Source of the DNA: Erodium maritimum
Taxonomy: Eukaryota; Streptophyta; Magnoliopsida; Geraniales; Geraniaceae
Direction: 5' to 3'
Assembly (NCBI GenBank): GCA_963921825.1
Contig: OY997596.1
Location: 8,747,001 to 8,811,000, forward strand
DNA length: 64,000 bases
The notes below the pieces were generated by a model, which was not told where the DNA came from, searched no databases, and worked only from the letters and a program-made list of their open reading frames with translations. Every line of letters begins with the position of its first letter. Positions within the stretch are counted from its first letter, which is position 1. Positions 13,618 to 63,100 of this stretch are shown piece by piece. The translations under genes and the position numbers were made by a program.

Positions 13618-13787
13618 TCCCGACAGTCATTAGGGGGAGTAAAGATCAGGGGGAGCTAGGACCGTTTTGTTGTACTCATTTTTCCTTTATTCGGGTTTTG
13701 TCCCACATGATTTTCCTGAAAATGTTTTTAACGAGACAGCTTAAAGCACGTCCGGTATATTTACAAATAGTGGTTCAAGGGGAGTAG

Positions 13788-33006: not shown

Positions 33007-33174
33007 TCACGGACACTGTCACGGAGCCGTGACACCGACCCTCACGGAAGACGTCATGGAGCCGTGACGTGTGCCGTCACGGTCTCCCTCACGGAGCCGT
33101 GACGTGTGCCGTCACGGTCTCCCTCACGGAGCCGTGACGTCATCCGTCACGGGATCCGTCACGGATCCGTGACG
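33007..33174. repeat. TCACGG..CCGTGA palindrome cluster in the gypsy solo LTR
   Basis: The imperfect palindrome TCACGG(A/C)(T/G)CCGTGA and its halves (GTCACGG, CCGTGACG) occur about ten times in 170 bp. Part of it is a 35-bp duplication (33,071 and 33,106). Equivalent clusters occur at 40,770-40,900, 54,484-54,596 and 55,059-55,191. Confidence 0.9.
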
Positions 33175-45400: not shown

Positions 45401-45581
45401 GCACATCTCTCCGAAGTTCTTTTATACTCATGAGCTGCAGAAGAGTAATGAGATAGATGTCAAGCAGATTCGATCCTGCGAGAATCTTGCTGATTTATTC
45501 ACTAAAGTCTTGCTGACTTCTACCTTTGAGAAGCTAGTTCACAAGATTGGCATGCGTCGTCTAAGAAAGCAACCAAAGTAG
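42421..45581 (+). other. copia-2 integrase, reverse transcriptase and RNase H regions (fossil)
   Basis: Pre-integrase: FMLWHNRLGHPGSTMMRRI with a CTSCSQGK box. Integrase: IRLYNAGEFTSRAFDDYC, HTQNGLAESFIKRIQVIAR. Reverse transcriptase: LYGLKQSSRMWYYRLSEYLT and IAVYVDDINLIGT, then RHCLGLQLEHL. RNase H: IKHVLRYLSGTRDLGLMYS, IYEDNAACIAQVRGGYIKG and LADLFTKVLLTSTFEKLV. Domain order is that of Ty1/copia. It is much better preserved than in copia-1. Confidence 0.85.
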
Positions 45582-46102
45582 CCTGCCTGAAGTCGGGGAG
45601 ATAAATTTTGTGCGCTGCACTCTTTTTCCCTTATCCAAGTTTTGTCCCACAGGGTTTTCTTGGAAAGATTTTTAACGAGGCAGCATCAAGCACAACATCA
45701 AGGACGTTTTTGCGCGTTACATTCTTTTCCTTACAGGTTTTGTCCCACCGGGTTTTCATGAGGAGGTTTTTAACGAGGAAACTTAAGGCGCATTTGATAC
45801 ATTCGTAGATGGTGGTGTCCAAAGGGGAGTGTTGTAAAACACGTGTCTCATAATGTGGCCACCACCTTTCACCTTTGATACACATGGCTAATCATAAGAT
45901 GACTAAGCCATATAAGTATAGGCTATATATACATCATTTTGTTCATGTAAAACATATAGTTACAGGAACACAGAAATACAAAAAAAGAGTGAATTCAATT
46001 TGGTTCAGTAAGTTTGGTTCGATCATTCAGTTTCAGTTCTGATCGTTTGAGAAATAATCACAACAATAAGGCTATTATAGCAGTATTAAATATCTAAAAG
46101 GA

Positions 46103-46983: not shown

Positions 46984-47609
46984 TATGCCTAATATAGTGG
47001 GCATAAATTCTATACGAAATAGCTCTATTTATTACGAATTTTTGATTTTAGCTTTCATGAAAATACCCGACAGGGTGTTTATTAACCAGCACCCGACGGG
47101 GAACTCATTAAGAATAAACTTGTAACTTCGCAAAAAATAAAATTGAGAGTTGGATGCTGCAATATGGTTTCACAAGAAGACTATTTCACAAATCACCTAA
47201 TATATAGGGATTCACATCAAAAATTTTATGTTGTTCAGGATGAGAGTTTAAGAACCATTGTACTATATTTTTTCTCTCTACTCACACTCTCAACCCTAGC
47301 TCCTCAGTTGTCGCCACCTCTCCCCTCCGTTGGTGACGATACTGACTACCTAGTCATTATTGCCACTAGCAGTGGCCGTTATCCTCTCCTCAGCTTTTTC
47401 TCCCCCCTTTTTTTCCACCTCTACTTCTCCTCCTTGTTCCCTCTTTCGATCTCCATCAGAGTTCGTCGTTTGGTGGGCGCTGGAGTTCGAGCCACTGTCA
47501 TAGCTACACCGCATGTCGCTTTCATGTTGTTGGAGAGGTGATGCTCGCTCCAACGTTGTGTAGCTCCCTCCGGTGTCATGGTGATGCTCGCGTTGTAGTT
47601 CATGTGGTT
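46984..47609. other. No gene recognised
   Basis: Mixed sequence with a pyrimidine-rich, Ser/Leu-rich open frame (47,143-47,541) that I do not believe is a gene: low complexity, no domain, no clear start context. The word CACCCGACGGGG near 47,090 partly repeats ACCCGACAGGG near 47,067. Confidence 0.4.
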
Positions 47610-48150
47610 AACTGGTTGTTGAAGATGTGGTTAAGGATTCTAAACCAAAGTCGGATGGGCCTCAGTTGTCTCAGACTTCCTCTCATAAACTGAGTACAAG
47701 TTTCGATCATGAATTTCCTGCTCTGTCGCCTGAAACTGTGAAGAAAGTTAAAGGGAAAAGAAAGAAGAAACCACTGTAGCCTTATGCAATGAAAACTCGA
47801 TGTCAATTCCAGAGTAATAGTGAAATTCTTGAAGCTAAACTTAGAAAATAAGCTTGGAGACATTTTGTCACTACAAGAGCTTTGCTGAATATAGGAACTG
47901 AGGATGCAGTCCTATCCTTATCTTCTTTGGGACGTTTCAAGTGTCTTTTCTTTTTATAAGGGTCTTTTCTTTTAATTTTTGATTGGTGTTTCCTTTTGTT
48001 CGGTTGTTTTTTGTGTTTAAGGTAGATTCTCTTGCTATTTTATGGTAGAATTTCTTTGAAGCTTTCTTGCGGATAGCTTTTCGATAGTCTTTCTTTTCAT
48101 CTTGGGGTAATATTTTTTAATAAGACCATCATTTATAAAAAAAAATCATT
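47610..48150 (+). mobile_element. 5'-truncated LINE 3' fragment
   Basis: A decayed coding stretch (KDSKPKSDGPQLSQTSSHKL, then FDHEFPALSPETVKKVKGKR) is followed by T-rich 3' untranslated text, TTTTTTAATAAGACCATC and a poly-A at about 48,137-48,145. The charged Ser/Lys text resembles the C-terminal tail of LINE ORF1 proteins. No target duplication was found. It is several stops old. Confidence 0.5.
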
Positions 48151-48171
48151 TGTATATTTTCCGCCAAGACG

Positions 48172-48765
48172 CCTTTTTTTTAATCAGCAAATTTTATTAA
48201 AACAACCAAGTTTTCAAAATGAAAACAAGGCCAAGGATCCACCCTCATAACACCTTACAAAACAGAGAATGCTCAGTGCACCTCACAACCAGAGTACAAA
48301 ACCTAGATTTAGCATACATGAAGAACAACTGATACCAACGCAGGGGTCGGGACTCTTACCCAAGTTAATTTAACACCCTTTAAGTAAACAAAACGCCAAC
48401 AAAGGCAACAGAAAAAAAAACCCAAAAAGCAAAACAGCGAAAAATAAAAATCCCACAACAAACGAGCCCCATCACCAATCCAACTGCAATCCGATCCTTG
48501 GGAAGTACATTCTCCACTTAGTCCACCGAAACTAAGTTGTGTATCATCTAGCCAGCACTAAGAACGATTGAAGTAGGGTGCCTAAAGTACGAGTGGAGGT
48601 CGAGGTAACAGAGCTCTGAACCTTGTTGAGCAAGGAAGATATTTGGGACATGTCTATGAGGGGATTTAGCAATCAGATACTTCTGACTACTCCCACTGAC
48701 GGTATGTCTGTGGGAGAACAATTGAGGACCAGGCTTATAAATTGATATGATTTGGAAAATTGTTC
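48172..48765 (-). mobile_element. 5'-truncated LINE 3' fragment, opposite strand
   Basis: On the minus strand the sequence ends TTGGTTGTTTTAATAAAATT, then TGCTGATT and poly-A (plus-strand T run 48,173-48,181), a LINE-type tail. Upstream is a long T-rich 3' untranslated region. Before that comes a short coding-like end, ISSLLNKVQSSVTSTSTRTL to LGTLLQSFLVLAR and a stop near 48,550. It abuts the 5' end of the Athila element, where an LTR would be expected. No target duplication was found. Confidence 0.6.
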
Positions 48766-48869
48766 AGGCGATATTGTGCGCCGCCGTTGCCGGGGAGCAA
48801 TTGAGCCAACCCTTTCTATAAAAGTTGTGTTTCGACTATTTCACTTTTTAATTTTTGCTTTTTAATTTA

Positions 48870-50283
48870 TGCTCACAAGATCTAAATCCACTCCAAGTGA
48901 TTTGCTTAGTGATACAGATTTACGAGAAGCAGGACAATTGAAGATAAGAGCTTTAAAGAAGAAACTTGGTGAGGGAAGTGTCAATTCAGACACAATGGAA
49001 AATGTGGGCACTGATGCCACTAGGTAAAATGAAGGAGGTGGACAGCAGAATAACCAGGTGGTCCAAAGAAATCAACAAGAGGAACCTATAACTGTCGTGG
49101 AGCCACCAAGATATCTCTGTGACTATGGAACACCTCATACCAATAACCTACATTAGAGCATTCTCCACCCACCAGTGGAAGCTCACACCTTCGAGATTAA
49201 AACCTCTAACATCCAATTACTCCTACAAAATACATTTAGCGGGAATCCAAACACGGATCCCGATCCTGGTGCACATTTGACGAAATTTAATGAGATTTGT
49301 GCTACTTTCAGGTACAATGGAGTGTCAAACGAAGCAATTATATTGCGGGTCTTCAAGTTTAGTTTAAGGGATGAGGCAGCTGACTGGATTTCAAGCCTAC
49401 CTAACCACACACTTACAACATGGGCTGATCTATCAAAGAAGTTTCTAGCTAGATTCTACTCGCCAAGGAAGACTAAGGAGCTCAGAGTCAAGATCCAGAA
49501 TTTTGCTCAATCGAACTTTGAATCACTAGCAGAAGCTTGGGCGCGATATCAAGGACTCATGAGGAAGTGTCCCCACCATGGACAAGAGTTGTGGTTGCAG
49601 TTACAGACATTCTACCAAGGGTTAAACAGATCAAGTCAAGCAGAGCTGAATGCCGCATCTGGTGGTTCGTTCACCAAACACACTCTACAGGAATGCCAAG
49701 AGATTCTAGATAATATAATGGCCAATGATGCTTGGCATTCAGAAAGAGCCCCTGGAGGACCTACAGTCAATTCAGCAGCAGAAATAAATCAAGTCATGGA
49801 GCAATTGAAAGAAATGAAGCTGATGATGGCAGGCATGCAGGGACAACCACCACAGCCTAGTCCAATAGACTATGAGGAGGCTAACTGGGTGAATCATAAT
49901 AGCAACCAAGGGAGGAAGTATGATCCTTATTCCAACACTTATAATGAGGGTTGGAAAGATCGCCCCGAGCTAAAATGGGAGGAGATCAGAATCAAAGAAG
50001 CCAAAATCCCACACCTCCCGGATTCAATCAGAGACCTCAAAATCAGGCCAGCCAGCAGAGAAATCCTCAACCTCAGCAAAATCCAGGTAACCAACAATCT
50101 TCTTCTGACCCAACTTCTTTAATTTTAAAAATGTTGCAGGTACAGGAGGAGAAGAATAGGATACGGGACGAGGAGAATAGGAAAATCCATAAGCGGTTGG
50201 AGGAAAAAGATCAGCAGATAAGGGAGCTGCTTAGGAAACAAGCTGAAGCAGATAACAACTATAAATCAGTAAATCTCAACTAG
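48870..50283 (+). other. Athila element gag region (fossil)
   Basis: Begins MLTRSKSTPSDLLSDTDLRE near 48,870. The core gag domain (49,230-49,700) shows HLTKFNEICATFRYNGVSNE, LRDEAADWISSLP, WADLSKKFLARFYSPRKTKE and LWLQLQTFYQGLNRSSQAEL, the Retrotrans_gag pattern of Athila elements. A Gln/Pro/Asn-rich region and a charged coiled-coil-like stretch (QVQEEKNRIRDEENRKIHKR) follow. Confidence 0.85.
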
Positions 50284-50669
50284 GACAAGTTGCCACAGCA
50301 GCAAACTACAGACCTTTAGAATCCTAGAGAAAATGCACATGCAATTACTACAAGGAGTGGTAAGGTGGTGGAACCAGAAGAGAAGGAGAATGAGAAAGAT
50401 CTACCCTCAGAAATCTCTACTGAACAAGTTCAAGATCAAGAGCAAGAAGATTTAATAAAGGTAGTAAGCAGAGAGCACTCCACAGGTAAGAAGGTAAGGG
50501 AGCCCGTGGTTGATTCAGAAACCCGGACTCCACATCTTCCTTTCCCCCCTATTGTTAAGAAATCTAAACATGATGATCAGTATGCTAAATTCTTGAATGT
50601 GTTTAGGAAACTTGAGATTAATATTCCTTTTCTTGATGCAATTAAAAACATGCCTATCTATGCAAAATA

Positions 50670-53033
50670 TTGAAGGATATTATATCTAATAAAAGGAAAT
50701 ACCAAGAGCATGAAAGGGTGAATTTAAGTGAGGAGTGTTCTGCTATCTTGCACAATAAACTGCCTCCTAAATTGAAAGACCCGGGTATCTTCACTATACC
50801 ATGTGAAATGGGTTCCCTTTCATTTGCAAAAGCTTTGTGTGATTTAGGGGCTAGTATAAATTTGATGCCTTTAAATACTTTTAAGCAATTAGGATTGAAA
50901 GAGGAATTAAAACCAACTTCTATGTCCCTACAGCTAGCTGATAGATCTATTAAGTACCCTAGAAGGATTGTGGAAGATGTGTTGGTGAAAGTTGACAAAT
51001 TTATTTTCCCTGCTGACTTTGTTATCTTGGACATGCAGGAAGATTATGAGATTCCCCTAATCCTAGGAAGACCATTCTTGGCCACAGCCCGAGCTCTAAT
51101 TGATGTAGAGCAAGGGAAATTGACCATCAGATATGGAAAAGATGAAGTGGTTTTTAATGTTTTCAGATCCCTTAAACATGCTATAATTGATGATACTTAC
51201 TATAGGATTGATTTGATTGATTCTGTAGTGCAGGAAAATTTTATCCCTAATGATCCTTTACTGTCATGTTTAATTAATGAGGATACAACCACTTGTGATC
51301 TTATGCAGGATAAGGAAGCAGAGATGGTCAATCTCTTGGAGGCATGCCCTCCAAGAAAGAGGGATAGACCCCACACTCGTCTCACCTTGGAGGCGAGGCA
51401 AGTGCTTATGCTAAAACCCTCTGTTGAGCAAGCCCCGGAGCTTGAATTAAAACCCCTCCCAGATAATTTAAAATATATGTTTTTAAATGAAGACAATACT
51501 TTACCTGTAATAATTTCTTCTGAATTGTCTTCTCTACATGAGGAAAAGCTGATGAGGGTGCTCAAGGAACATAAAAAGGCCTTTGGATGGACAGTAGCTC
51601 ACATTAGAGGAATCAGCCCGTCAACATGTATGCACAAGGTTTTAATGGAAGATACCTACAAACCAACTGTGCAACCACAAAGGAGGCTCAACCCATTAAT
51701 GCAAGAGGTAGTAAAAAAGGAAACTATAAAGCTACTCGATGCAGGTATTATCTATCCCATCTCTGATAGTGCTTGGGTTAGTCCTATTCAATGTGTCCCT
51801 AAGAAAGGGGGGATGACGGTAGTAACAAACGATAAGAATGAACTAATTCCTACTAGAACTGTTACAGGGTGGAGAGTATGTATAGACTATAGAAAATTAA
51901 ACGATGCCACCCGAAAAGACCATTTTCCCTTGCCTTTTATTGATCAAATGTTAGAAAAATTAGCTGGTCATGAATATTATTGCTTTCTAGATGGATATAG
52001 TGGGTATAATCAAATAGCTATAGCTCCCGAGGATCAAGAGAAAACTACTCTAACTTGCCCTTATGGAACATTTGCATATAGGAGAATGCCATTCGGTTTG
52101 TGTAATGCACCTGCTACATTTCAAAGGTGCATGACTGCTATTTTTCATGACATGATCGGTGATTACCTTGAAGTATTTATGGATGATTTCTCTATATTTG
52201 GTTTTTCGTTTGATGATTGTTTAAATAATCTGCATAAAGTGTTGACTAGATGTGAAGAAACAAACCTTGTTCTTAATTGGGAAAAATGTCATCTTATGGT
52301 ACAACAGGGAATTGTTTTAGGCCATAAAATCTCATCTAAAGGGATTGAGGTAGATAAGGCCAAAGTAGATGTAATAGGTAAATTGCCTCCACCTATTAAT
52401 ATAAAAGGAATTAGAAGTTTCTTAGGACATGCAGGGTTTTATAGGAGATTTATAAAGGGATTTTCTGAAATCTCTAAACCATTATGCAATTTGCTAGTAA
52501 AAGATGTCCCTTTTAATTTTGATGACGCATGTTTGAAAATCTTCTTAACCTTAAAAGAAAAATTGGTAAATGCACCTGTAATGGTCAGTCCTGACTGGTC
52601 TCTACCCTTTGAATTAATGTGTGATGCTAGTGATATAGCGGTAGGAGCAGTTTTAGGACAAAGGAAAGATAAGGTTTTTCATACCATATATTATGCTAGT
52701 AGAGTTCTCAATGAGGCTCAATTAAATTATGCTACTACTGAAAAAGAACTTTTAGCTGTGGTATTTGCATGTGACAAATTTCACCCATATCTTGTCTTAT
52801 CCAAGGTTATAGTATACACTGATCATGCAGCTCTTAAGTCCCTGTTTAGCAAGAAGGATGCTAAGCCTAGATTGCTAAGGTGGATCTTACTACTACAAGA
52901 ATTTGATTTGGAAATACGGGATAAGAAAGGAGTAGAGAATGTGATAGCAGACCACCTGTCTAGGATTGAGAATCCATATGAAGAGCTTAGTAAGCCTATA
53001 AATGAGGAGTTTCCAGATGAGCACCTATTCTAG
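50670..53033 (+). CDS. Athila element protease, reverse transcriptase and RNase H (fossil part)
   Basis: 787 codons open. Aspartic protease: LCDLGASINLMPLNTFKQL (about residues 56-74) and LILGRPFLATARALIDVEQG. Reverse transcriptase: TVQPQRRLNPLMQEVVKKE, CIDYRKLNDATRKDHFPLPF, RMPFGLCNAPATFQRCM and the catalytic box EVFMDDFSIFG. RNase H: PFELMCDASDIAVGAVLGQR, TTEKELLAVVFACDKFHPYL, VYTDHAALKSL and NVIADHLSRIENP. This part looks whole. Confidence 0.9.
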   Translation: MKDIISNKRKYQEHERVNLSEECSAILHNKLPPKLKDPGIFTIPCEMGSLSFAKALCDLGASINLMPLNTFKQLGLKEELKPTSMSLQLADRSIKYPRRIVEDVLVKVDKFIFPADFVILDMQEDYEIPLILGRPFLATARALIDVEQGKLTIRYGKDEVVFNVFRSLKHAIIDDTYYRIDLIDSVVQENFIPNDPLLSCLINEDTTTCDLMQDKEAEMVNLLEACPPRKRDRPHTRLTLEARQVLMLKPSVEQAPELELKPLPDNLKYMFLNEDNTLPVIISSELSSLHEEKLMRVLKEHKKAFGWTVAHIRGISPSTCMHKVLMEDTYKPTVQPQRRLNPLMQEVVKKETIKLLDAGIIYPISDSAWVSPIQCVPKKGGMTVVTNDKNELIPTRTVTGWRVCIDYRKLNDATRKDHFPLPFIDQMLEKLAGHEYYCFLDGYSGYNQIAIAPEDQEKTTLTCPYGTFAYRRMPFGLCNAPATFQRCMTAIFHDMIGDYLEVFMDDFSIFGFSFDDCLNNLHKVLTRCEETNLVLNWEKCHLMVQQGIVLGHKISSKGIEVDKAKVDVIGKLPPPINIKGIRSFLGHAGFYRRFIKGFSEISKPLCNLLVKDVPFNFDDACLKIFLTLKEKLVNAPVMVSPDWSLPFELMCDASDIAVGAVLGQRKDKVFHTIYYASRVLNEAQLNYATTEKELLAVVFACDKFHPYLVLSKVIVYTDHAALKSLFSKKDAKPRLLRWILLLQEFDLEIRDKKGVENVIADHLSRIENPYEELSKPINEEFPDEHLF

Positions 53034-53078
53034 GCAAAGCACATCGAAGCCCCGTGGTTTGCAATTTTTGCAAACTAC

Positions 53079-54356
53079 TTGGCAACTGGTGCTCTAATTC
53101 CTGACATGAAACCCTACCAGAAGAACAAATTCTTACATGATGTAAAAAATTATTTTTGGGATGACCCTTTTCTGTTTAAAATTTGTGCAGATCAAATGGT
53201 GAGAAGATGTGTCCCCGAAGAGGAGCAAGAAGCTATTTTGCATCAATGCCACGGGGGTGATGTAGGAGGTCATTTTGGACCACAGAGGACAGCTCAAAAG
53301 GTACTTCAATCAGGTTTTTATTGGCCTGGCTTATTTCATCATGCTATTCGGTTTGTTGAGCAATGTGACAAGTGCCAAAGAATAGGAAATATATCAAAGA
53401 AGCATGAGATGCCTCTGAATGTGACCATAGAGGTAGAGTTGTTCGATGTGTGGAACATCGATTTCATGGGTCCATTCCCTAGATCTAACCGTATGGAATA
53501 TGTTCTAGTTGTAGTAGATTATGTGTCTAAATGGGTAGAGGCGATAGCCTTACCCACTAATGATGCCAAGCCGGTAGTTGCTTTCCTTAAGAAGCACATT
53601 TTTTCCCGGTTTGGCACACCCAGGGCAATAGTAAGCGATGGTGGGAAACACTTTTGCAATAAAATATTTTGGAAACTTCTAAATCAATATGGAGTCACCC
53701 ATCGCTTAGCTACACCCTACCATCCCCAAACTAGCGGGTAGGTGGAAGTTACCAATAGGGAATTAAAAAGTATTTTAGAAAAGACTGTTGATATGTCTAG
53801 GAAAAATTGGGCACAAAAGTTAGATGATGCACTTTGGGCATATAGAACAGCATATAAAACCCCTATTGGAATGTCACCGTATAAGATGGTGTATGGGAAG
53901 TCATGTCACTTACCGTTAGAGTTACAACATAAAGCATATTAGGCGCTTAAGTTTTTAAATTTTGATGCTAATCTGTGTGCTGAAAAGAGGTTGATGCAGA
54001 TTAATGAGTTGGACGAGTTTAGGTCCCTTTCTTATTTCAGCACTGAGTTATACAAGGAGCGCACCAAGATCGCCCATGATAAGAAAATTGTGCAAAGGGA
54101 GTTTAGAGAAGGAGATAGGGTCCTTCTTTATAACTCTCGGTTGAAGATCTTCTCCGGAAAGCTCGTGTCCAAGTGGAGCGGGCCCTATAAAGTAACTCGA
54201 GTCTTATCAAAAGGGGCGGTAAAGATTTGTGATGGAACACGGCCCCCATTTTTAGTCAATGGACATCAAATTAAGCATTATTATGGGGGACCGTTGGGAC
54301 CAGAGGAGTGCCTATACCTGGAGGAGCCAGACTATGAGGATGAAGAGGCGGCCTAA
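53079..54356 (+). other. Athila element integrase region (fossil)
   Basis: The zinc-binding N-terminus shows [20 protein letters not shown] and CDKCQRIG. The core shows [38 protein letters not shown] and TPYHPQTSG, then the glutamate-bearing part near 53,745 and [20 protein letters not shown]. The C-terminal part (KIVQREFREGDRVLLYNSRL, SGPYKVTRVLSKGAVKI) ends at 54,356. Confidence 0.88.
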
Positions 54357-54370
54357 AGCCGCCTTTTGAG

Positions 54371-54418
54371 TCGAGCTAACGATGTTAAACAAAAGCGCTT
54401 CTCGGGAGGCAACCCGAG
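54371..54418 (+). promoter_or_regulatory. Conserved hairpin motif, copy 1, just after the integrase
   Basis: TCGAGCTAACGATGTTAAAC at 54,371-54,390, then AAAAGCGCTT, then an 18-base hairpin CTCGGG-AGGCAA-CCCGAG (54,401-54,418) with a perfect 6-bp stem. The same arrangement with the same spacing recurs at 56,761-56,808, with a different but still perfect stem. Confidence 0.85.
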
Positions 54419-54483
54419 GTTATTTTGTGTTTATTTTCTTTGTTTTTCGTGAACTACAGAGGGTCGGATCCATGAGGAACTCC

Positions 54484-54596
54484 GTCACGGAGTCTGTCAC
54501 GGACCCGTGACGAAGCAGAGGCGGAAATTAAAAACTGTAGCTTCATCACGGCTCCGTGAGGGAAGACGTCACGGTAATGATCACGGGTCCGTGATC
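54484..54596. repeat. TCACGG..CCGTGA palindrome cluster in the Athila element (first)
   Basis: GTCACGGAGTCTGTCACGG, ACCCGTGACG, ATCACGGCTCCGTGAGGG, GTCACGG and ATCACGGGTCCGTGATCG lie in 113 bp between the integrase and the envelope-like ORF. Confidence 0.85.
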
Positions 54597-55058
54597 GAGC
54601 AAGGAGAAGAAAAAAATTAAGGATCAGGTCGGGTGGCCCAATCAAGCAGGCCCAACCCGAAGCCCAAGTTCCAAGCCCGGTCCGAGGCTCACCCAATCCC
54701 ACTCGCCCATTTGCCCATCCTGAGGCCCACTTATACAAACCCTTGGTTCATCTTCTTCTCCACACGCCTCTATCTTCTCAACTTCCCCTTCTTCACCTTC
54801 ACTTTCGAGCTCCACACAACCAGTTCACCACAACCCTAACTACACCCCTCCATCTCCTTTTGTTCTTCCCCTTCAATCCCCCACTTGCCCAAACGCCTCC
54901 ATCCTCGAAACCTGCTGCTCCTCTTCACCTTCGGTTTCAAGCTCTGAACCTTCATCTTCAAACACCATGGGCTTCGGGTTGGCCTCGTCGCCGGCGTTCA
55001 GTGAAGGACCGCCGGATTTCCAGTTGCCGGAAAGCGATAGAGCTCCGGTGTGCAACGC
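54597..55058. other. Non-coding spacer of the Athila element
   Basis: A pyrimidine-rich stretch (CCTC/CTTC-rich at 54,740-54,960) between the two palindrome clusters. Open frames here are low-complexity Pro/Leu/Ser text and are not supported as genes. Such polypyrimidine text could hold a splice acceptor for an envelope-like message, but I cannot show one. Confidence 0.4.
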
Positions 55059-55191
55059 ATCACGGATCCGGCCTGTAAGCCGTCACGGACAGTGTCACGG
55101 CTCCGGCCTGTGCTCCGTTGCGGGACTTCTCACGGTTCCGTCCAGCTCGCCGTCACGGACCGACTCACGGATCCGTGGTGACTGCCGTGAC
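55059..55191. repeat. TCACGG..CCGTGA palindrome cluster in the Athila element (second)
   Basis: ATCACGGATCCGGCC, CGTCACGGACAGTGTCACGG, CTCACGGTTCCGTCC, CGTCACGGACCGACTCACGG and ATCCGTGG lie just upstream of the envelope-like ORF. Confidence 0.85.
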
Positions 55192-55233
55192 TGAACAGTG
55201 AAGGCTGAATTTTGAAAAAAAAAAGGGTTTTCA

Positions 55234-56442
55234 TTGTCTATTTTGATCTTTTCTCGGTTGTTCTATTTCAAATGGCACCTGCTAAGAAGCGGAAGCAGTC
55301 ACAGGGAGGGGCATCCGAACCCGAGCTCTGATTCGGACAAGGCGGACCAGCGACCTCTTAACCCTCCACACTCGGCCATAAGTACTCCAAATCAACCTTG
55401 CCTGATTTTTAGACATGAATTGCGAATTAAGCTGCTCAAGCAAAACAAGAAACGTGGCACTATGCAAAATCGTTTCTTGGATACCAAGTTCGTCACACGA
55501 ACTCTGGGTTTTGCGGATGAGCTATGGGCAAAACTGGAGGCCTTTGGGTGGCCTAGACTTTGGGGATGGGAGCCCCGACATTATGAGAAATTCACTCTTG
55601 AGTTTCTCACGTCGTATTGTCGGTTACACGTGTGTGACAAACCGGTTGAATTTAGACTGTGTGGGCGAGTGTTTAAACCCTCCCTATCTGAATTTAGAGA
55701 AGCCTGCGGGTTTGCTCCTATTGAGAGGGGTTACCCCGATTATTGTCTGATCGAGGATGCTTGGGCAAAAATTAGTGAGCCCGACATAGCCCTGACCTCG
55801 AGTCCCCAGGCTAAGCACCTCAAGTCCGTTATGCTCAAATACATGCATAGGGTGTTAAGTTACACTCTTTTTAAATGGAGTGATAACTTACATATCGTGA
55901 ACCATGGGGAGATTCGGCTTCTTCACTGTTTCAAAAAGGGAATTCCAGCCCCCTTTGAGAAACTCCTTTTGGATCACCTTGACCAGCATGCTATTAGGCC
56001 TAATGGAAGGATTAGTTGTGCAGCGATTGCCACACAACTAGCCCAGTTTTATGGGGTTTGGGACAACCCACATGAAGCACCCACACGCTTTAAATCCAAC
56101 TTGGTTAGTCGGGAAGTTTTTAAGGGTACCGACATGCGCACAGCGGGCCCCGAGCCAAGAGAGGAAGAGAGGGAGGAAGATCCTAGGTTTGCGGCCATGT
56201 CGGCCCAGATCACTACTCTCCGAGAGGAGATGCGCGCGGGTTTCCAGAGACAGGAGACCCGCCATGAGGACTATATTACCCGATTTCAGGGTATCTCTAC
56301 TCGGTTCGACGGGGTCGAGACCCGGTTTGGGGGGATGGATACTCAGTTTGACAAGGTTCACACCCGATTCGACACGATGGACTCGACTCTTGTCCACCGT
56401 GCCTATGACTGTTGGCTGGATCCAGACACGCATGGGGTCTGA
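55234..56442 (+). CDS. Athila envelope-like ORF (ATHILA ORF-1 family), fossil part
   Basis: Open for 402 codons. The conserved part begins near NRFLDTKFVTRTLGFADELW and continues LEAFGWPRLWGWEPRHYEKF, LEFLTSYCRLHV, EFRLCGRVFKPSLSEFREA, YMHRVLSYTLFKWSDN and LLDHLDQHAIRPNGRIS. This is the ATHILA ORF-1 family, found downstream of pol in Athila elements and often called envelope-like; its function is unknown. The C-terminus is a repeating amphipathic stretch (ITTLREEMRAGFQRQETRHE, then TRFDGVETRFGGMDTQFDKV) with clear heptad-like periodicity, so a coiled coil is likely. The true start is uncertain; the first 60 codons look non-family. No membrane segment is obvious. Confidence 0.75.
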   Translation: MSILIFSRLFYFKWHLLRSGSSHREGHPNPSSDSDKADQRPLNPPHSAISTPNQPCLIFRHELRIKLLKQNKKRGTMQNRFLDTKFVTRTLGFADELWAKLEAFGWPRLWGWEPRHYEKFTLEFLTSYCRLHVCDKPVEFRLCGRVFKPSLSEFREACGFAPIERGYPDYCLIEDAWAKISEPDIALTSSPQAKHLKSVMLKYMHRVLSYTLFKWSDNLHIVNHGEIRLLHCFKKGIPAPFEKLLLDHLDQHAIRPNGRISCAAIATQLAQFYGVWDNPHEAPTRFKSNLVSREVFKGTDMRTAGPEPREEEREEDPRFAAMSAQITTLREEMRAGFQRQETRHEDYITRFQGISTRFDGVETRFGGMDTQFDKVHTRFDTMDSTLVHRAYDCWLDPDTHGV

Positions 56443-57573
56443 CTGGTGGGGTAGTGGCCGGTCCGGATAGTCTGGCCAACCCTCTGACCTCCCTCCTGGC
56501 AACCCGCAGTGAGCGGGTGCATTTGCATCTTGTATATATGTGTTTTACGCTTTCCCATCATTTATTTTATGCATGCTGCGTGGTTTCTGAGCTTTATCTG
56601 ATTTCAGCATCGCTAGGGCTTGATGGATTTGGGAAAGCGTAATTTGTGTTTTTATTTCCCATGCATTTTATGTTTTTGTTTGAGTCTGTGTCAGCATTAG
56701 CTCTGCCGATCAGTGGCTTCTGGAGCGGTGCTTGGGTGGCTTCTGTGGCCACCCCTTTCGTCGAGCTAACGACGTTAAACAAAGGTGCTGGTTGGGAGGC
56801 AACCCAACACATGGCATTGGGAGCGAGATGAGTTCAACGGAGCAGATTATGGCGCCGAACCTCCTGGAGGCTCTCTCGGGCGAAGAGCTCTCCATCCATA
56901 CATGCGTGAGGATATCCACAGACAATACAGTTCACGTAGCGGTTCTTCGAGGGGCAGTATCTCTACCCTTCCTATTTTACATGGTTATCGCTATTTACAG
57001 CCTTTATGCTATTTGGTGGGCCATGAGTGCCCGAATTGCCGTGCTGATAGACTATGCATATAGGGTTGTGTGAATTGTATACCTGCTGACTTTAAGTGTG
57101 GGGTGCTACATTGTTATCATTTATCATGTGCATGCGTATATATGTGTTTAGATTGTAAATATGTGTTTAAGGTCGCACTGGGGACAATGCTTAGTTTTAA
57201 AGAGTGGGGTGGGGTATGCCTTGCATTGCATTGCTTTGTGTTTTCTTTTGTGTGCTCATGCATCATTTCGTGTTATAAACTTTTCGAAAAATCCAAAAAA
57301 ATTGAAAAAATCAAAAAAATCAAAAAAAATATTTTCTGGTGATATGCAAGTCTAGTGTTTATGTTCCTAAGGATTCGATAATTGAATTGTCGCTATTGCT
57401 TATTTCTTGCATAAATCAAGGTTGTATATGAGCATGAGTGAATCAAATAAGTAGTGAATGTGGAACCCGCTTTGTTTAAAAGTGTAATAAAGCGTAACTT
57501 GAAACGTCGAGGGGTGAAAGTGCATCAATTAAAAGCTTTGAGAATGGAAATTCAAAAAAAAAAAAGGGACAAA
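56443..57573 (+). other. 3' untranslated region of the Athila element
   Basis: No gene. It holds the second hairpin copy (56,761-56,808), a poly-A-rich tract at 57,290-57,340 and a purine tract, CAAAAAAAAAAAAGGGACAA and AGG, near 57,555-57,573 that could be the polypurine tract. Short frames here are not believed. Confidence 0.6.
56761..56808 (+). promoter_or_regulatory. Conserved hairpin motif, copy 2, after the envelope-like ORF
   Basis: TCGAGCTAACGACGTTAAAC at 56,761-56,780, then AAAGGTGCTG, then GTTGGG-AGGCAA-CCCAAC (56,791-56,808). The loop AGGCAA and inner GGG/CCC are as in copy 1. The outer three stem pairs differ (GTT/AAC versus CTC/GAG) and still pair perfectly. Confidence 0.85.
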
Positions 57574-58640
57574 GGTGCTGGACTTTAGAGATGGACCGGA
57601 CTTGGCCCATTTAGAGGCTCAGCCGGCCCATTCAAACTGATGCACTCGGCCTGGCCCAAAGAGCAGCTATAAGTGGGAGGAAACCCTAGATGAGGGTACT
57701 GTTCATCTTCCCCTTTCCCTTTCTCTCTCTGCGCGAACCCGAGCAACACTCGTCGCCGCTCCTCACGTCCCCGTCTTCTCGCCGTCCTCCCACCGCCGCG
57801 CAGCAGAGGCGTCCTCAGCCTCCTCTCCACCTCCATCAGTACCCTCGTCTCCGTCTACAAGCCGAGCAGGAGCGAACTCGAACCAGGCGCCGGAGACCCG
57901 TCCGCTCGGATTCGTCCTCTCCGGGCAGAATCGAGCCCTCTCCCTCCTGTCTTCTTCTTCTCCGGCCTCTCTCTTCTCTGTTCCGAGCTATCCCGAGCTC
58001 AATGCGTGAGAGTTCGGTCGGAAACCCTCGCCGGCGACCTCGAGTCGTCGGATCTGGACGAAGGACGAGCCTTGGCTCTTGCCTGAGCCACCGCCGCCAC
58101 GACACCAGTCTCGCCGTGGACTCGCCGCCTTCCTCCGCTTCTTCCCCTCGTCGGCGCACCTCACCTGCCACCGTGGAAGACCGCTGGAGCGACCCGTGCT
58201 CACCCGCGTCACGTCCAGCTCCGGCCGACCTTACCAGGCCAAGCTGGGCAGAGCAAACCGGGCTTGGGCCAAGCTTCGGTCTTGGGCCAGAAGAGAACTG
58301 GGCCAAGAAGGGCCTTGGGCCAGACGAGTTTTGGGCCGAGTGGGCCTTGGGCCTGGGGAGAGATCTGGCCGGACAGAACAGAAAATGGGCTTTGGCCCAT
58401 TGCGGACTCGGGCCTTGGGCCCATTTGGACTTCAGGATCGGGTCTGGACCGGGTTCGGGTTCGGATCCGGGTCAACCGGACTTTAATGGAAACCGTTTTA
58501 AAAGCAGATTTAATTAATCGGTTTAACGAACTCAAGGTGAGATGTTGGACTGGGTAAATTGTGGTTAAATCAGAGGAACTTGGGACTTTTATCCTTATTG
58601 ATTTGGACATTTTATGTGTCAACCTAGACGGGACTTCGCC
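57574..58640. other. GC-rich block: Athila 3' LTR remnant or U3 of the next gypsy LTR
   Basis: Starts TGCTGGACTTTAGAG directly after a purine tract. It carries a TATA-like CTATAAGTGGGAGG at 57,667-57,680 and a C/T-rich leader-like stretch (57,700-57,850). Then come many GGGCCTTGGGCC-type words (58,255-58,440). A frame of 275 codons (57,690-58,517) is Arg/Ser/Pro-rich with no domain and looks like composition, not a gene. It either begins the 3' LTR of Athila, or is the U3 of the LTR ending at 60,129; the length from 57,574 to 60,129 (2,556 bp) would fit the latter clan. Confidence 0.45.
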
Positions 58641-60129
58641 CGAGAGCGAAGATTTTGGACCCGAGCTAGAAGAGCAAGGATCACGCCGGGACCCGAAGGA
58701 GGAACGAAGTAGTGATCACCGGGCTTCACCAAAGCGTTGAAGAGGAGGACCTTGAGGTAGGGAAAGCCTTAACCTCTCGTTTAAGATGCTTAGTATGCAT
58801 GCTAAGTTAATAAAATTGGAAAAGGTCCTAGACATGCTTATAGGATGCGAATAACTAGCTTAATCGTCTTTCAATTGCTAATAACCGGAAGAGTCTAGTG
58901 GTGACCGATTAGGATGCCAATCACTAGTGTAATTCGCTTTCAATACTTGGGATATGATTGTCTGGTAGAGGAGCCTTGGCAAAGCCCTCGGATTAGTTGT
59001 GTGCTAGGATCACATGCTTGGTTGTTGATTGCTTGTGGATAGGCTAATGAGTCTAATGAAACTAGTGGAATTGCATGCTCGAATGCTCTTTGAAGGCTTA
59101 TGATTTAGTTGATTACACTCGTACTTGCTCGTTGATTGTATTCGAATGATTACTTGTTTAACTTGATTGGTTGTTGGGAGTATCGAGTATGACTGGTTGT
59201 ACCGAGCGGTGCAATCAGGTGATCGATGCTCCGGTGGTTCGAAACTGGTAAGTGAACGGTAAGTTGGAATTGTGCATTTGGTGTGCTATGGTTGCGTGAT
59301 TCGGGTACTATGTGTTGTGGTGAATTGGTGATGTTTGAGCAGTGGGTGGACTTGGATTGGTGGTTGTTGAGCTTGTATTACTTCATATTTCGGTTGAGTG
59401 CGTTATTCAATTATTAATCGCTTATCATTAAATTGCCCACGTGTGCGCTTCCTATGGGAGTATGGCCCTGGGTTCCCGAGGATCTAAAATCCCTTGGAGA
59501 CGTTTCTGAGACTTCCGACGATATGTGCCCTGAAGGGTGTTTCCGATAGTCTCAATGATATGCGTCTCCTCTGGATTGGAGGGAAAATCCGAGAGGACAC
59601 ATAAGATGTGGATCGGAGGGTGGTGACTTCATGTGCCACGGCATTGATCGGTTTATCTATTACCTGTGTTTGTTAATAGCTATATGTTAACTTCACTGAG
59701 GAATTTACTTGTAATGTTACGAACTACCTTGTTGATTGTGTTGGTGAATTTATGGATCTTGTGGACGTTGCCGTTGATTCTTTGGAGTTTAAGGTTTACC
59801 TTGTTTTGTGTTTTCCCTACTGAGCGTAAGCTCACCCCTGTGAGTTCATTGTTGTGTTTACAGGCTTGATTGAGGAGTAGAAGTTCGGGAGCTTCTCAGG
59901 GTGGGTGCGTGATAGAGACTTCGTATCTTTACTTTTAATGTTTTGAACCAAAACTTGTTGAGATTTATTACTACACCCCTGGAGGGTTATCGTATTCTGA
60001 ACTCGGTTTAATGGATTATTTTCATTATTGGAGATTTTCAGGAAGTAAATGTCGATTTATCTTTCTTTATTGTTTTCTATTACTCGTCATGCCTCGGGTC
60101 CAGACGATAACCGGATTTGGGGCGTGACA
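58640..60129 (+). repeat. 5' LTR (at least its 3' two thirds) of a Ty3/gypsy element
   Basis: From CGAGCTAGAAGAGCAAGG (about 58,661) it aligns with the solo LTR at 41,047-42,416 and ends GGATTTGGGGCGTGACA at 60,129. A tRNA-Met primer-binding site, TGGTATCAGAGCC (60,133-60,145), follows, which proves this is a 5' LTR. The start of the LTR is unclear: the TGTAAGA terminus of its relatives is not found, so either the U3 is different (beginning near 57,574) or the LTR is truncated. Confidence 0.8.
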
Positions 60130-63100
60130 ATTTGGTATCAGAGCCTGGTTCCATTTGAAACAGGTGTCTTGGTGAACTTGTTTTCAAACCTCGGACTGAA
60201 GTCATTTAGGTGGGTAGAGTTAGGTGGTCTAAGTCGTAAACTCAGTGACGCAATTTGAGGCGTAGAGTTGGAACGACCCAAGTCTTGATTGTTTCAATGT
60301 TTAATTAAGTTTGACTCTTTCGTATGTATACGACTGTTACGTTGCTTGATTAGCATCCTTGCCCCATTGACTGTAAGTTACAGTGATCGGTGACGTCGAA
60401 CGGTTGAGATCGGGATTGGACTAACGAGTAATGATCGAACCATTATGATTTGGTTGTTAAGTAAATCCATTGGTAAGTAAGAGTGTTAATGGGAGTTTTG
60501 CGGGTGGTTGTAGCAATATTGTGAATTGCTAAGCTAGGAGTGTACTACAACTGTTTTAATATGTTCCTCTTTTATAGGTGTTTTGTTAAGGTGTACCTAC
60601 CTTCCGATAAAGTGTCGGTAAAACGAGCTATGAACCGTAGTAGGGTGCGCTTTCCCTCTGACCGAGTGTCGGTGAATAGTGCTATAGTCGTGAGGTCCGG
60701 CGTGTTAAGGGAGTCTAGTTATGGGTGGATTGCTATTGAATCATTGCGTGATCGTCATTGCTTCCATGTGTGTTGATGTTGAGTGTTTTGGGTGGGGCAC
60801 GAGAACCCCGTAACCCGTTGTATGAGAACTATGAGTGGGGTCGTCGAACCCGTGTCTTGACCTTTGATGTTCGGGAGGCCATGAGAGCCTTGTTAGACTG
60901 TTGAGTCTGGAGTGGCCATGAGAGCCGTGTTATTATTTGTGTTTGGGTGGCCTTGAGAGCCCGTGCTATTAATTGTGTTTGGATGGCCATGAGAGTCCGT
61001 GTATTAAAGTGGTGTATGTGGTTGGCCTCGGGGAGGTTGCGAGCATTCTTTGGCTGGCTTACGAGTTGAGGACTCGGTAAGTTGCGAGCGTGGTTTATTG
61101 TTGATTTTGGGACACGAGTATCCCCTATGCCCGCTGAGGTGGCGATTTTGGAACACGAGTATCCCGTATGCCCGATGAGGTGGCGAATTTGGGACACGAG
61201 AATCCCGTATGCCCGTTGAGGTGGCGAGTTTGGGGCACGAGTACCCCGTAATATCTTGGGAGCACGAGAACTCCGTTTATTGATTGCATCGTGTACTTTA
61301 GGAGCATGAGAACTCCGTTATTCTGACTGTGTGACGTCTTGAAAGAGCATGAGAACTCTGTGTACTTGTACCTTGTGAATTTGTATTGGGGGTTGTCCCG
61401 CTTAAGCGGAGGGTTATGGGAAGATGCGAATGGGTCATACCGAATTTTCAATAGAACTAAAATATTTACACCATCACTGGTTAACTCAGGGGCGCCACTG
61501 TAGTTGAGCTTGGTGGTTCGATGTCCAGTTGTTACAATGAGGTTCGGGGACGCCTGAATCAGGTTGTAACAACATGAGATCGACAAGAAAAGGTTTGGGT
61601 AAAAGTTAAGAAATGGGAATTCATGGAAGGGAAGGACAGGTTAAGGGTAAATTTTGAATTGAATGGTGTTAAGTACTAAACCTCTCTCTGTGAAAGGATA
61701 CCCGAGCAAGGGGTATGCCTGTTGCGTGTGCCTTTTGTGTGGTGTGCTTGAGTTTGAATCCTCCTGTAGGAGTGGATTTCTTTGACTTGGTTGAACCCTC
61801 CTGTAGGAGTTGGTGGTTGATTGCTAAATCGCTGGTTGTTGCTGTGTGACGCATAAGGATGCGAACTTGGTTGCTATATTATATGAGTATATATATATCT
61901 ACTAGTGTGAGGGGCGTATCTGTGGGTGACTTGCGAGACGCGCGTGTACGTTCTTGTACTTGATCGAACCTTTGGTTTGGGGTGAGACGCACGAGGTGCG
62001 GGTCTCTGGTTTGCGTAAGTGTTATGTTTGACGTTACGACTTACTTTTGGTCCAAGTGGGATCCGGTAGAGACGCACGAGAACATCATGTTGTGGTGAAT
62101 CGAACCGATTGGGTTAAACCAAGATTGGAACCTTTAGTGCTAAAGGCAGTGAGATGGCGAGATGTCCCGAGTTTATATCCGGGAGAGTACCAAGAGCCGT
62201 CCAATTGTGGGGCAGAGCCAGATATCAGCTATCGTTCTGACAGGGGCAGTGAGCGCCCAGGGAGCTACGTCCGCAAAGCACGAGAGTTTTGGGATTAGAC
62301 CGGTAGGGTCATCACCTAGAGTCCCTTCGGTCGCAGAGCCGACTCGAGCGGCTCGACTGAGGAGGTGGTTCGCGCGGTGTTAGATGTGCTCAGCATGAGA
62401 GTACAACGCCAGTACAAGAGCCTGTGCCTACCGCCGACGCGGTCGCTACCGAGATGCCAAGCCAGGTGGATGGTTACACGGCCCAGGCACTCAGGAGTTT
62501 TCTTCAGTTGAGTACACCAGTTTGATCCGGGAATTTAGACCCCGAGGCAGTTATATTATGCTTGGAGTGGAGTGCCCACAACCGCAATGCGGTTAGAGTA
62601 TTCGGTTATTCGTTGGAGATTATGTTCCGCGACCCCCCGCCTGAGAGAGAAGCACAGTATTAGTGGCAGTGTGTGCAGACCAGATTTGGAAATGGCTTCC
62701 ACCCGTTCAGCGGACTGTCCTTGGGACAATATGTCCTTTGATCTACTCGAGATGACCGACACCAGCAGTTTTGGATCTGCATGGGAAAGAGATGACCGTC
62801 TATGAGTATTAGGCGAGGTTATTGTCCCCGTATCGCTTCGCACCCGGGATGCTGCCGACCGAGGAGAGCCGTCGTAGACATTTGAGAAGGGACTCCGTTC
62901 CCGTGGCACAGAGTGAGTCTTTGCTTCAGAACCATGGACGATTCAACACTAGTGGAGCCAACACTAGCGTTAGAAAGGCAGATTGGGAAACCGCCAAGGC
63001 GCGGCAGACCAGGCCGAGGCCGAGGGGCTTCTTGAGGCACGATGGGCTGGAGAAGTAGCGTCCGTTAGACCTGCCTCGATGGCATGGGTTACTCCTATGC

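Follow-up and report, generated by a model that had tools for sequence, protein, structure and literature searches.

A hairpin-flanked core at both ends of an env-like cassette as a putative module joint of Athila-type retroelements in Erodium maritimum

The window analysed here, a 64,000-nucleotide stretch of the Erodium maritimum genome, carries on its forward strand a retroelement with the Ty3/gypsy domains Retrotrans_gag, RVT_1, RT_RNaseH, Integrase_H2C2 and rve, in that order (Pfam). A primer-binding-site-like sequence at 48778–48797 is close to that of other loci and is presumably of the tRNA-Asp type (PMC1142308). It is a variant of the word TGGCGCCGTTGCCGGGGA, which seven of the 20 ten-kb loci contain. 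A sequence at 57554–57572, regarded as polypurine-tract-like from its position and composition, precedes the presumed 3′ LTR. Between pol, whose integrase C-terminal reading frame ends with TAA at 54354–54356, and the 3′ LTR lies an env-like open reading frame (55216–56442, 408 aa from stop to stop), which has no match in a Pfam search and resembles the counterparts of other families among the elements compared. Judged from its sequence, the element is an Athila-type Ty3/gypsy retroelement with an env-like gene, a name that none of its 120 listed relatives, all plant proteins, bears.

The cassette that contains the env-like frame is flanked by two copies of a motif, part of which had been described in the first-pass annotation as a repeat followed by a hairpin. 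The placement of that repeat is borne out, with position 54371 as the first base of TCGAGCTAACGAtGTTAAAC and 56761 as that of TCGAGCTAACGAcGTTAAAC, and in both copies a 10-base spacer is followed by an 18-base hairpin (H2) with the loop AGGCAA and the inner pairs GGG/CCC in common. The outer pairs, as described, are CTC/GAG in copy 1 (CTCGGG-AGGCAA-CCCGAG, 54401–54418) and GTT/AAC in copy 2 (GTTGGG-AGGCAA-CCCAAC, 56791–56808), paired in each. By contrast, copy 2 does not directly follow the env-like frame, as had been stated, since its core starts 320 nt past the first base of the stop codon. The two copies share 81% identity across a 58-nt repeat, and GGGAGGCAACCC, allowing up to one mismatch, occurs three times in the window (two of them exact) against 0.14 expected from shuffling. 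In addition, a second hairpin (H1), absent from the earlier description, lies upstream of each copy: GAGGCGGC-CTAAA-GCCGCCTT at 54345–54365, with the pol stop within its loop, and GGGTGGCT-TCTGT-GGCCACCC at 56734–56754. Folded in isolation, H1 of copy 1 has a predicted energy of -14.1 kcal/mol (z -3.9). The full motif consists of H1, a conserved 30-base core (54370–54399 and 56760–56789) and H2, and the repeat described previously is only a part of it.

All motif copies examined come from this one plant genome, where a 15-base core word has 454 matches against 3 for a reversed control, and a diverged core pattern has 117 against 0. The core letters are nearly identical across distant families and between both copies. 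One locus (L285) is a chance match without hairpins and was kept out of the 111 distinct copies used below. Of 12 env-bearing elements, 11 have the motif twice, at the pol stop and again past env, in a set that includes the window's own element and of which 11 members were located through the motif itself; the one element without two copies is interrupted. The possibility, raised earlier, that most relatives lack the second copy therefore does not hold for this set. Env-less and non-autonomous elements have a single copy, which is kept even in the short non-autonomous L224, where about 1.2 kb separates the primer site from the motif. No further copy was found in 34 sources; the window and seven of the loci among them contain a primer-site-like sequence.

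In all 20 rows that show similarity to integrase on the upstream side, which stand for 17 distinct elements, copy 1 directly follows a stop codon, with the pol stop beginning 13–32 nt upstream of the core. Copy 2, in turn, is located 136–619 nt past env stops (20 rows), and some 800 nt separate copy 1 from the opening of the env-like frame. The idea that translation reads through the pol stop into the core was rejected, as the reading frame beyond this stop varies among families. An open frame with a hydrophobic end that spans copy 2 was likewise rejected as a gene, since its three codon positions vary alike (0.078/0.092/0.078), and no bias by codon position is seen past the motif, whereas the env control gives 0.100/0.063/0.119.

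Among the 111 distinct copies, 88 have a stem of at least 6 bp where H1 is expected and 94 where H2 is expected, compared with 12.2% and 15.7% of random stretches, respectively. For H2, 94.0% of cells are paired and 31 are double-changed, values that none of 500 shuffles reaches when kinship among copies is ignored, as it is in all shuffle statistics for both hairpins, and when 3 of the 73 listed rows are removed for indels (L200, L208, L212). The percentage paired, the double-changed cells and the covariation score lie above those of every one of the 500 shuffles and of each of the six slid versions. The number of pairs with a double change is reached by 36 of 500 shuffles and that of further pair types by 18 of 500, and slid versions tie both. 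The covariation of H2 comes mainly from one old split, CTC/GAG against GTT/AAC, with single cases added. In L235, an outer stem is TTC/GAA and pairing is retained.

For H1, the arm of one family (f, GGGACCC/GGGTCCC) forms 7 of 7 pairs with its own partner and 3–5 of 7 with the arms of nine other families. One H1 family has a stem of its own, set apart from that of the family closest to it by two inner pairs and by the loop; a separate H1 stem is present in L231, L235 and L290, and one mismatch is found in 2 of 10 family representatives. Whole-arm shuffles approach the observed pairing (largest 252 against 257 of 308) in a test that leaves 4 of the 111 copies outside any family and that is tilted towards pairing because arm offsets were set per family. 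As for the core, the idea that it forms a hairpin of its own (TAAC/GTTA) was rejected for lack of covariation. Folding predictions suggest that the core tends to be unpaired, with a mean percentile of 0.77 among 30-nt windows (26 contexts), and place the H2 stem with its context below 0.4 in 8 of 10 copy-2 contexts, where strong alternative folds compete with it. Taken across the families of this genome, these patterns support selection on RNA pairing for H2 and, less strictly, for H1. To this extent, the selection on RNA structure proposed in the first-pass annotation stands, but its argument from two copies diverging within one molecule was incomplete. The arms differ at least in part because H1 and H2 go along with separate modules, between which recombination takes place at the core.

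Evidence for such modules comes from the positions where similarity between elements ends. Joints were mapped by local alignment, and global identities were discarded, since an alignment with gaps yielded 72% in a case for which blastn reports no match. The DNA of L231 and L235 is 94.0% identical along 2,051 nt up to c1+47, within the first motif; their env cassettes give no DNA alignment, and similarity returns at the second motif, from c2-43, with 83% identity. At the protein level, their pol sequences are 91% identical, whereas those of env reach 40% across only 124 aa. The env-less L192 can be aligned with L216 across copy 1 over the interval -1488 to +45 and across copy 2 over the interval 0 to +501, and L189, L199 and L213, also env-less, have the same joining pattern. 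In these four elements, the left flank of copy 1 is fused to the right flank of copy 2 at the core. In a tree, the env-less clade falls with the env-bearing group of the window and is separated from the second env-bearing clade, with a support of 100. The right-hand joint is loose, as similarity returns 43 to 251 nt upstream of the copy-2 core, and between the window and L219 or L218 it changes at c1+82, past H2. Only L231/L235 is recent enough to be decisive as an env swap; in older pairs, rapid env evolution could mimic one, and conservation of the motif itself could explain where crossovers are located. In sum, both flanks of env show a break in similarity at the motif, more loosely in older pairs, and on these alignments the motif is a module joint where elements have swapped or lost the env gene.

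We consider it probable that H1, the mostly unpaired core and H2 form one cis-acting RNA element of Athila-type Ty3/gypsy elements, and that the core is the crossover place of env cassettes. In this genome, the motif is a seam between three modules: gag-pol, env and 3′UTR-LTR. In the one clear env swap (L231/L235) and in the env-less elements, the crossover falls at the core or its hairpin edges, so that the hairpins sort with modules: pol keeps H1 of copy 1, env takes along H2 of copy 1 as well as H1 of copy 2, and the 3′UTR keeps H2 of copy 2. In this way, recombination between motif copies swaps the env cassette or deletes it, leaving one copy. The exchange may take place by template switching while co-packaged RNAs are reverse-transcribed, with hairpins that stall reverse transcriptase and a core that supplies an identical acceptor. 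With less assurance, the motif may be kept for an RNA task near the stop codon that recombination exploits; as a first guess by analogy, the likeliest such task is to shield RNA with a long 3′UTR from decay, as the RSV stability element does. That the motif is a dedicated strand-transfer site, where the hairpins stall reverse transcriptase and the near-invariant core steers the nascent strand to the other copy or a co-packaged RNA, seems rather unlikely; if true, env would be a cassette of plant retroviral elements that is open to exchange, with a programmed joint on either side.

A related possibility, which we hold tentatively and find less convincing than the cis-acting joint, is that the motif serves first of all to stabilise RNA, as an NMD insulator placed after open reading frames, and that recombination there is incidental. 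The pol stop in or just upstream of H1 in 20/20 rows, the tendency of the core to be unpaired and the presence of the motif in env-less and non-autonomous elements would all fit, as would the RSV element after the gag stop, perhaps with others after pol and src (PMC2925335, in part), and the unstructured start of the TCV 3′UTR, which confers NMD resistance in a plant (PMC6277124, in part). Nevertheless, copy 2 sits 136–619 nt from the env stop, and the core is conserved in sequence, whereas analogous carmovirus regions share none in the available part of the latter account. A packaging, dimerisation or nuclear-export signal of genomic RNA is unlikely: retention in short non-autonomous elements such as L224 is expected of a cis signal, but such a signal would not need two copies at frame ends, the 34 sources hold no further copy, and the H2 loop is, by inspection, not self-complementary.

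It is quite improbable that the repeat has no RNA function and persists only through recombinational homogenisation, with hairpins that are chance or leftover palindromes. The near-identity of the core across distant families and both copies, the location of junctions at the motif and the small margins in the H1 arm shuffles are as this account would have them, yet stems stay paired with different letters, including H1 of L231, L235 and L290 and the outer TTC/GAA stem of L235. Direct support is lacking for the roles in splicing, translation or 3′-end formation that the first-pass annotation proposed, and these appear very improbable. Copy 1 is upstream of env, an invariant AG sits in the H2 loop, and CTAAC in the core resembles a plant branch-point word; however, core variants carry CCAAC instead, inspection revealed no pyrimidine tract, env opens some 800 nt away, copy 2 has no fixed place relative to the env stop, and env-less elements carry the motif too. 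The family-dependent frame past the pol stop and the lack of codon-position bias in the frame over copy 2 also speak against these roles. A duplicated polypurine tract was rejected by inspection, as the core is not purine-rich.

Outside this genome, an Rfam search of window positions 47000–60500 gave no match over either motif copy (E up to 1), and peptides that cover the motif, compared twice with known proteins as a proxy for other plants, had no match elsewhere. The pol protein has no relative in IMG/VR. Pattern scans of IMG/VR and GTDB returned 0, 67 and at least 118 matches; the core was in none of 17 filtered contexts from the latter two, and 7 matches of another contig scan had, by inspection, no flanking hairpins. 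Thus, no relative of the element was found among the viral or prokaryote contigs looked at, and none of the titles and abstract openings listed from the open-licence literature reports it.

Several known systems share some of these features. The RSV stability element also comes immediately after the stop codon of a retroelement, and its authors suggest that the pol and src 3′UTRs may act similarly; compared by description only, it differs in a minimal length of 155 nt and, in the portion of the article at hand, in having no flanking repeats or module exchange (PMC2925335). Sireviruses, plant elements of which some have an env-like gene, likewise possess non-coding motifs that are conserved, as well as an inverted repeat close to the 3′ LTR, but they are Ty1/copia elements whose motifs, in the excerpted description, are polypurine tract copies and CGG-CCG boxes, not H1, core and H2 around env (PMC2829016). 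In retroviruses, env is also replaced by copy choice between co-packaged RNAs; the sections available name no structured repeat at both env ends, unlike the case presented here (PMC10536682). With named joints, the exchange of Athila env and its coming and going would become a testable physical model, the motif could serve as a marker for env swaps in plant genomes, and plant retroelement work would gain a small, well-bounded RNA element as a candidate for decay protection, packaging or strand transfer. The closest parallel is found in Arabidopsis, where env and pol of different Athila families are likewise reshuffled into new lineages and env-less and pol-less elements are common; the accessible part of that report describes no breakpoint motif and nowhere uses the word hairpin, whereas in E. 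maritimum the joints fall at a structured repeat (PMC2410132).

The duplicated hairpin-bearing repeat that the first-pass annotation had described after pol and after the envelope-like ORF of an Athila-type element is confirmed exactly as stated, and it extends to a larger unit. A second hairpin (H1), found by reading the flanks, lies upstream of both copies in the window, at 54345-54365 in copy 1 (GAGGCGGC-CTAAA-GCCGCCTT; isolated fold -14.1 kcal/mol, z -3.9) and at 56734-56754 in copy 2 (GGGTGGCT-TCTGT-GGCCACCC; isolated fold -15.7 kcal/mol, z -3.7). In the unit, a linker of about 5 nt joins H1 to a 30-nt core, and a single base separates the core from the previously described hairpin (H2) downstream; the H1 loop of copy 1 contains the pol stop, TAA. 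The surrounding element has Pfam matches for gag, RT-RNase H and integrase and a tRNA-Asp-type primer site. A 408-aa ORF without a Pfam match occupies the place where Athila elements carry env. No LTR pair around the element (primer-site-like sequence at 48778-48797, 3′ region at 57554-60000) was found by blastn of the window against itself, and one LTR may have been replaced or lost.

Other features of the window were also noted. A TCACGG...CCGTGA-type unit recurs in eight irregular copies at 54462-55194, in the stretch that separates copy 1 from the env-like ORF; parts of these also match 33089-33174 and 40803-40853. An open frame at 56684-57073 spans copy 2 and has, by eye, a hydrophobic C-terminal stretch; it is probably not a gene, since codon-position bias is absent between relatives. 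Inside gag, on the minus strand, 49478-49583 resembles plant snoR71 below the threshold (32.9 bits, against a gathering score of 40), probably by chance. Elsewhere, 43572-45693 is 85% identical over 2.1 kb to 11660-13749 and has RT/RNase H-like open frames, presumably copia-like.

In the 763-Mb genome to which the window belongs, a 15-base core word matches 454 times, against 3 for the reversed word, and a pattern that demands another base at one position of the core matches 117 times, against 0 for its control. Stretches were fetched for the first 100 of the 454 places and for 12 of the 100 listed places of the diverged pattern. The analysis covered 111 distinct copies with at most 8 core mismatches. 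Core conservation in this sample is partly built in, because most places were picked by the exact word; the copy-1 motifs of four loci found only via their partners (L221, L226, L231 and L235) nevertheless agree with the core at 25-27 of its 30 positions. Of the 111 copies, 88 have a stem of 6 bp or more at the H1 position and 94 have one at the H2 position, as compared with 12.2% and 15.7% of random stretches from the same loci. Against shuffles of their own letters, 85 copies reach p <= 0.05 for H1 and 92 for H2.

Covariation was assessed for H2 in 70 distinct rows (73 listed, three with indels left out). Paired cells (94.0% versus 86.0% in shuffles), cells changed on both sides (31 versus 7.7) and covariation score (0.237 versus 0.098) were matched by none of 500 shuffles and by no slid version. 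Two coarser measures gave weaker results: the number of pairs with a double change (3) was reached in 36 of 500 shuffles and in the versions slid +1 and +2, and that of further pair types (8) in 18 of 500 shuffles and in the +1 version. Pair types are GC 45, CG 14, GU 3 and UA 1 at columns 32/49, UA 48, CG 15 and UG 2 at 34/47, and GC 64, AU 1 and GU 1 at 35/46. Most of this covariation is a single old difference between copy-1 H2s and other H2s, with additional cases in L235 (TTC/GAA) and L205 (one A-U). For H1, 107 of the 111 copies were assigned to ten families, some with identical arms, and 92.1% of cells are paired (83.4% in 44 distinct stems). Eight family representatives pair at 7/7 positions and two (g and h) at 6/7; pair 4 is A-T in 29 copies, T-A in 27, C-G in 21 and T-G in 13, and does not pair in 17. 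Family f (L231, L235 and also L290) has arms GGGACCC/GGGTCCC, with C-G at pairs 5 and 6 where other families have G-C, and an unrelated loop; its 5′ arm makes only 3-5 of 7 pairs with the 3′ arms of other families. The distinct stems pair at 257 of 308 cells, compared with a mean of 239 and a largest of 252 in 1000 shuffles of whole arms, a modest difference, since GC-rich arms are common to most families. Within one genome, the reading of the hairpin as selected RNA structure is supported; the functions suggested with it (3′-end formation, splicing or translation) are not.

When folded with context, the mean H2 stem probability is 0.50; it exceeds 0.7 in six of ten copy-1 and five of six single-copy contexts, and is below 0.4 in eight of ten copy-2 contexts. 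The core is predicted to be mostly unpaired, at a mean percentile of 0.77 among 30-nt windows (26 contexts), and an internal core hairpin was without support. The best fold of window copy 2 (56732-56812) is one long imperfect stem (-32.7 kcal/mol), not two hairpins, with the 5′ arm of H1 cross-pairing with H2; switching between folds is possible.

Where integrase similarity lies upstream, taking the first in-frame stop near its end, the pol stop starts 13-32 nt before the core in all 20 rows (17 distinct elements). By the same rule, copy 2 follows the env-like stop at 136-619 nt (20 rows). Both copies occur in 11 of 12 env-bearing elements of this genome (the window, L216, L217, L218, L219, L221, L225, L226, L231, L234 and L235); except for the window they were found via the motif, so that one copy is given but its partner is not. 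In the twelfth, L220, the stretch includes copy 1 and no more of env than its start; the following motif (L281) is some 10 kb further on. A single copy occurs in env-less L223 (gag, RT and integrase present; L192 is its motif part), in the partly seen env-less L189, L199, L211 and L213, and in non-autonomous elements that retain little of pol (L186, L191, L207, L224, L228, L230 and others). L227 has one motif, of the copy-1 kind, without an env match. The core profile found no additional copies in 34 sources (primer-site-like sequence in the window and seven loci). L224 (1-9901) contains a tandem array of non-autonomous elements (period 4,849 nt; 5,052 nt at 100% identity), which is either very recent or an assembly effect.

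In this genome, the junctions between modules lie at the motif. Between L231 and L235, an alignment of 2,051 nt with 94.0% identity runs through pol and copy 1 and stops 47 nt past the copy-1 core start (c1+47); no DNA alignment spans the next 2.3 kb, and similarity resumes at c2-43, relative to the copy-2 core (83%, 1,583 nt). Their pol proteins are 91% identical and their env proteins 40%, over only 124 aa, with the L235 env nearer to that of the window (42% over 387 aa). In copy 1, H1 and core are the same or nearly so and the H2s differ (CTCGAG..CCCGAG versus TTCGGG..CCCGAA); in copy 2, the H1s are unlike and the cores alike again. In six older between-family pairs, similarity stops at c1+47 to +74 and resumes 60-251 nt before copy 2. 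For these, fast env evolution is an alternative to an env swap, and L231/L235 is therefore the decisive case. Within families the edges vary: the window and L219 are 95.7% identical to c1+82 and then 79% (env 76%, 3′ UTR 91%), the change between the window and L218 is likewise at c1+82, and L226/L221 align to c1+233. Window and L221 are 71% identical in pol versus 85% in 220 nt of 3′ UTR. Env-less L189, L192, L199 and L213 align to L216 up to +45 at its copy 1 and from 0 at its copy 2; as they match through both, the single motif of each is where the two sides join. The 3′ end of L235, from its copy-2 H1 onward, is matched at 90-92% by L186, L207 and L230. The hairpins fit travel with modules: copy-1 H1 with pol, copy-1 H2 and copy-2 H1 with env, and copy-2 H2 with the 3′ UTR.

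A maximum-likelihood tree of pol residues (LG+G4; outgroup of 13 proteins from a protein search) joins the env-less clade to the env-bearing group of the window (support 100), with L221, L226, L231 and L235 as a separate env-bearing clade (support 95). The history is shorter with a single loss of env in the lineage that lacks it; env may instead have been gained repeatedly. The junctions would arise by template switching during reverse transcription, the route that such elements usually take; pausing of synthesis at hairpins beside an identical acceptor would promote such switching. As for the job of the conserved element, a first guess is that it might stabilise RNA near a stop, because it sits at the pol stop, has a core predicted to be unpaired and is found in env-less and non-autonomous elements as well. 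Two points speak against this: copy 2 is set apart from the env stop, and the core is conserved in sequence.

Athila-like repeats of other plants probably carry similar hairpin-bearing sequence. The motif has no Rfam match, and in open-licence literature nothing was found on such an element, the sole appearance of the H2 word being in an unrelated article about a bacterium. RNA stabilisation near a stop has precedents in the RSV stability element (PMC2925335) and an unstructured region of TCV (PMC6277124). Recombination between env and pol has been published for Arabidopsis Athila families (PMC2410132), where, unlike here, a breakpoint motif is not described in the excerpted text; the main new point is a structured RNA element that marks the joints of env cassette exchange.
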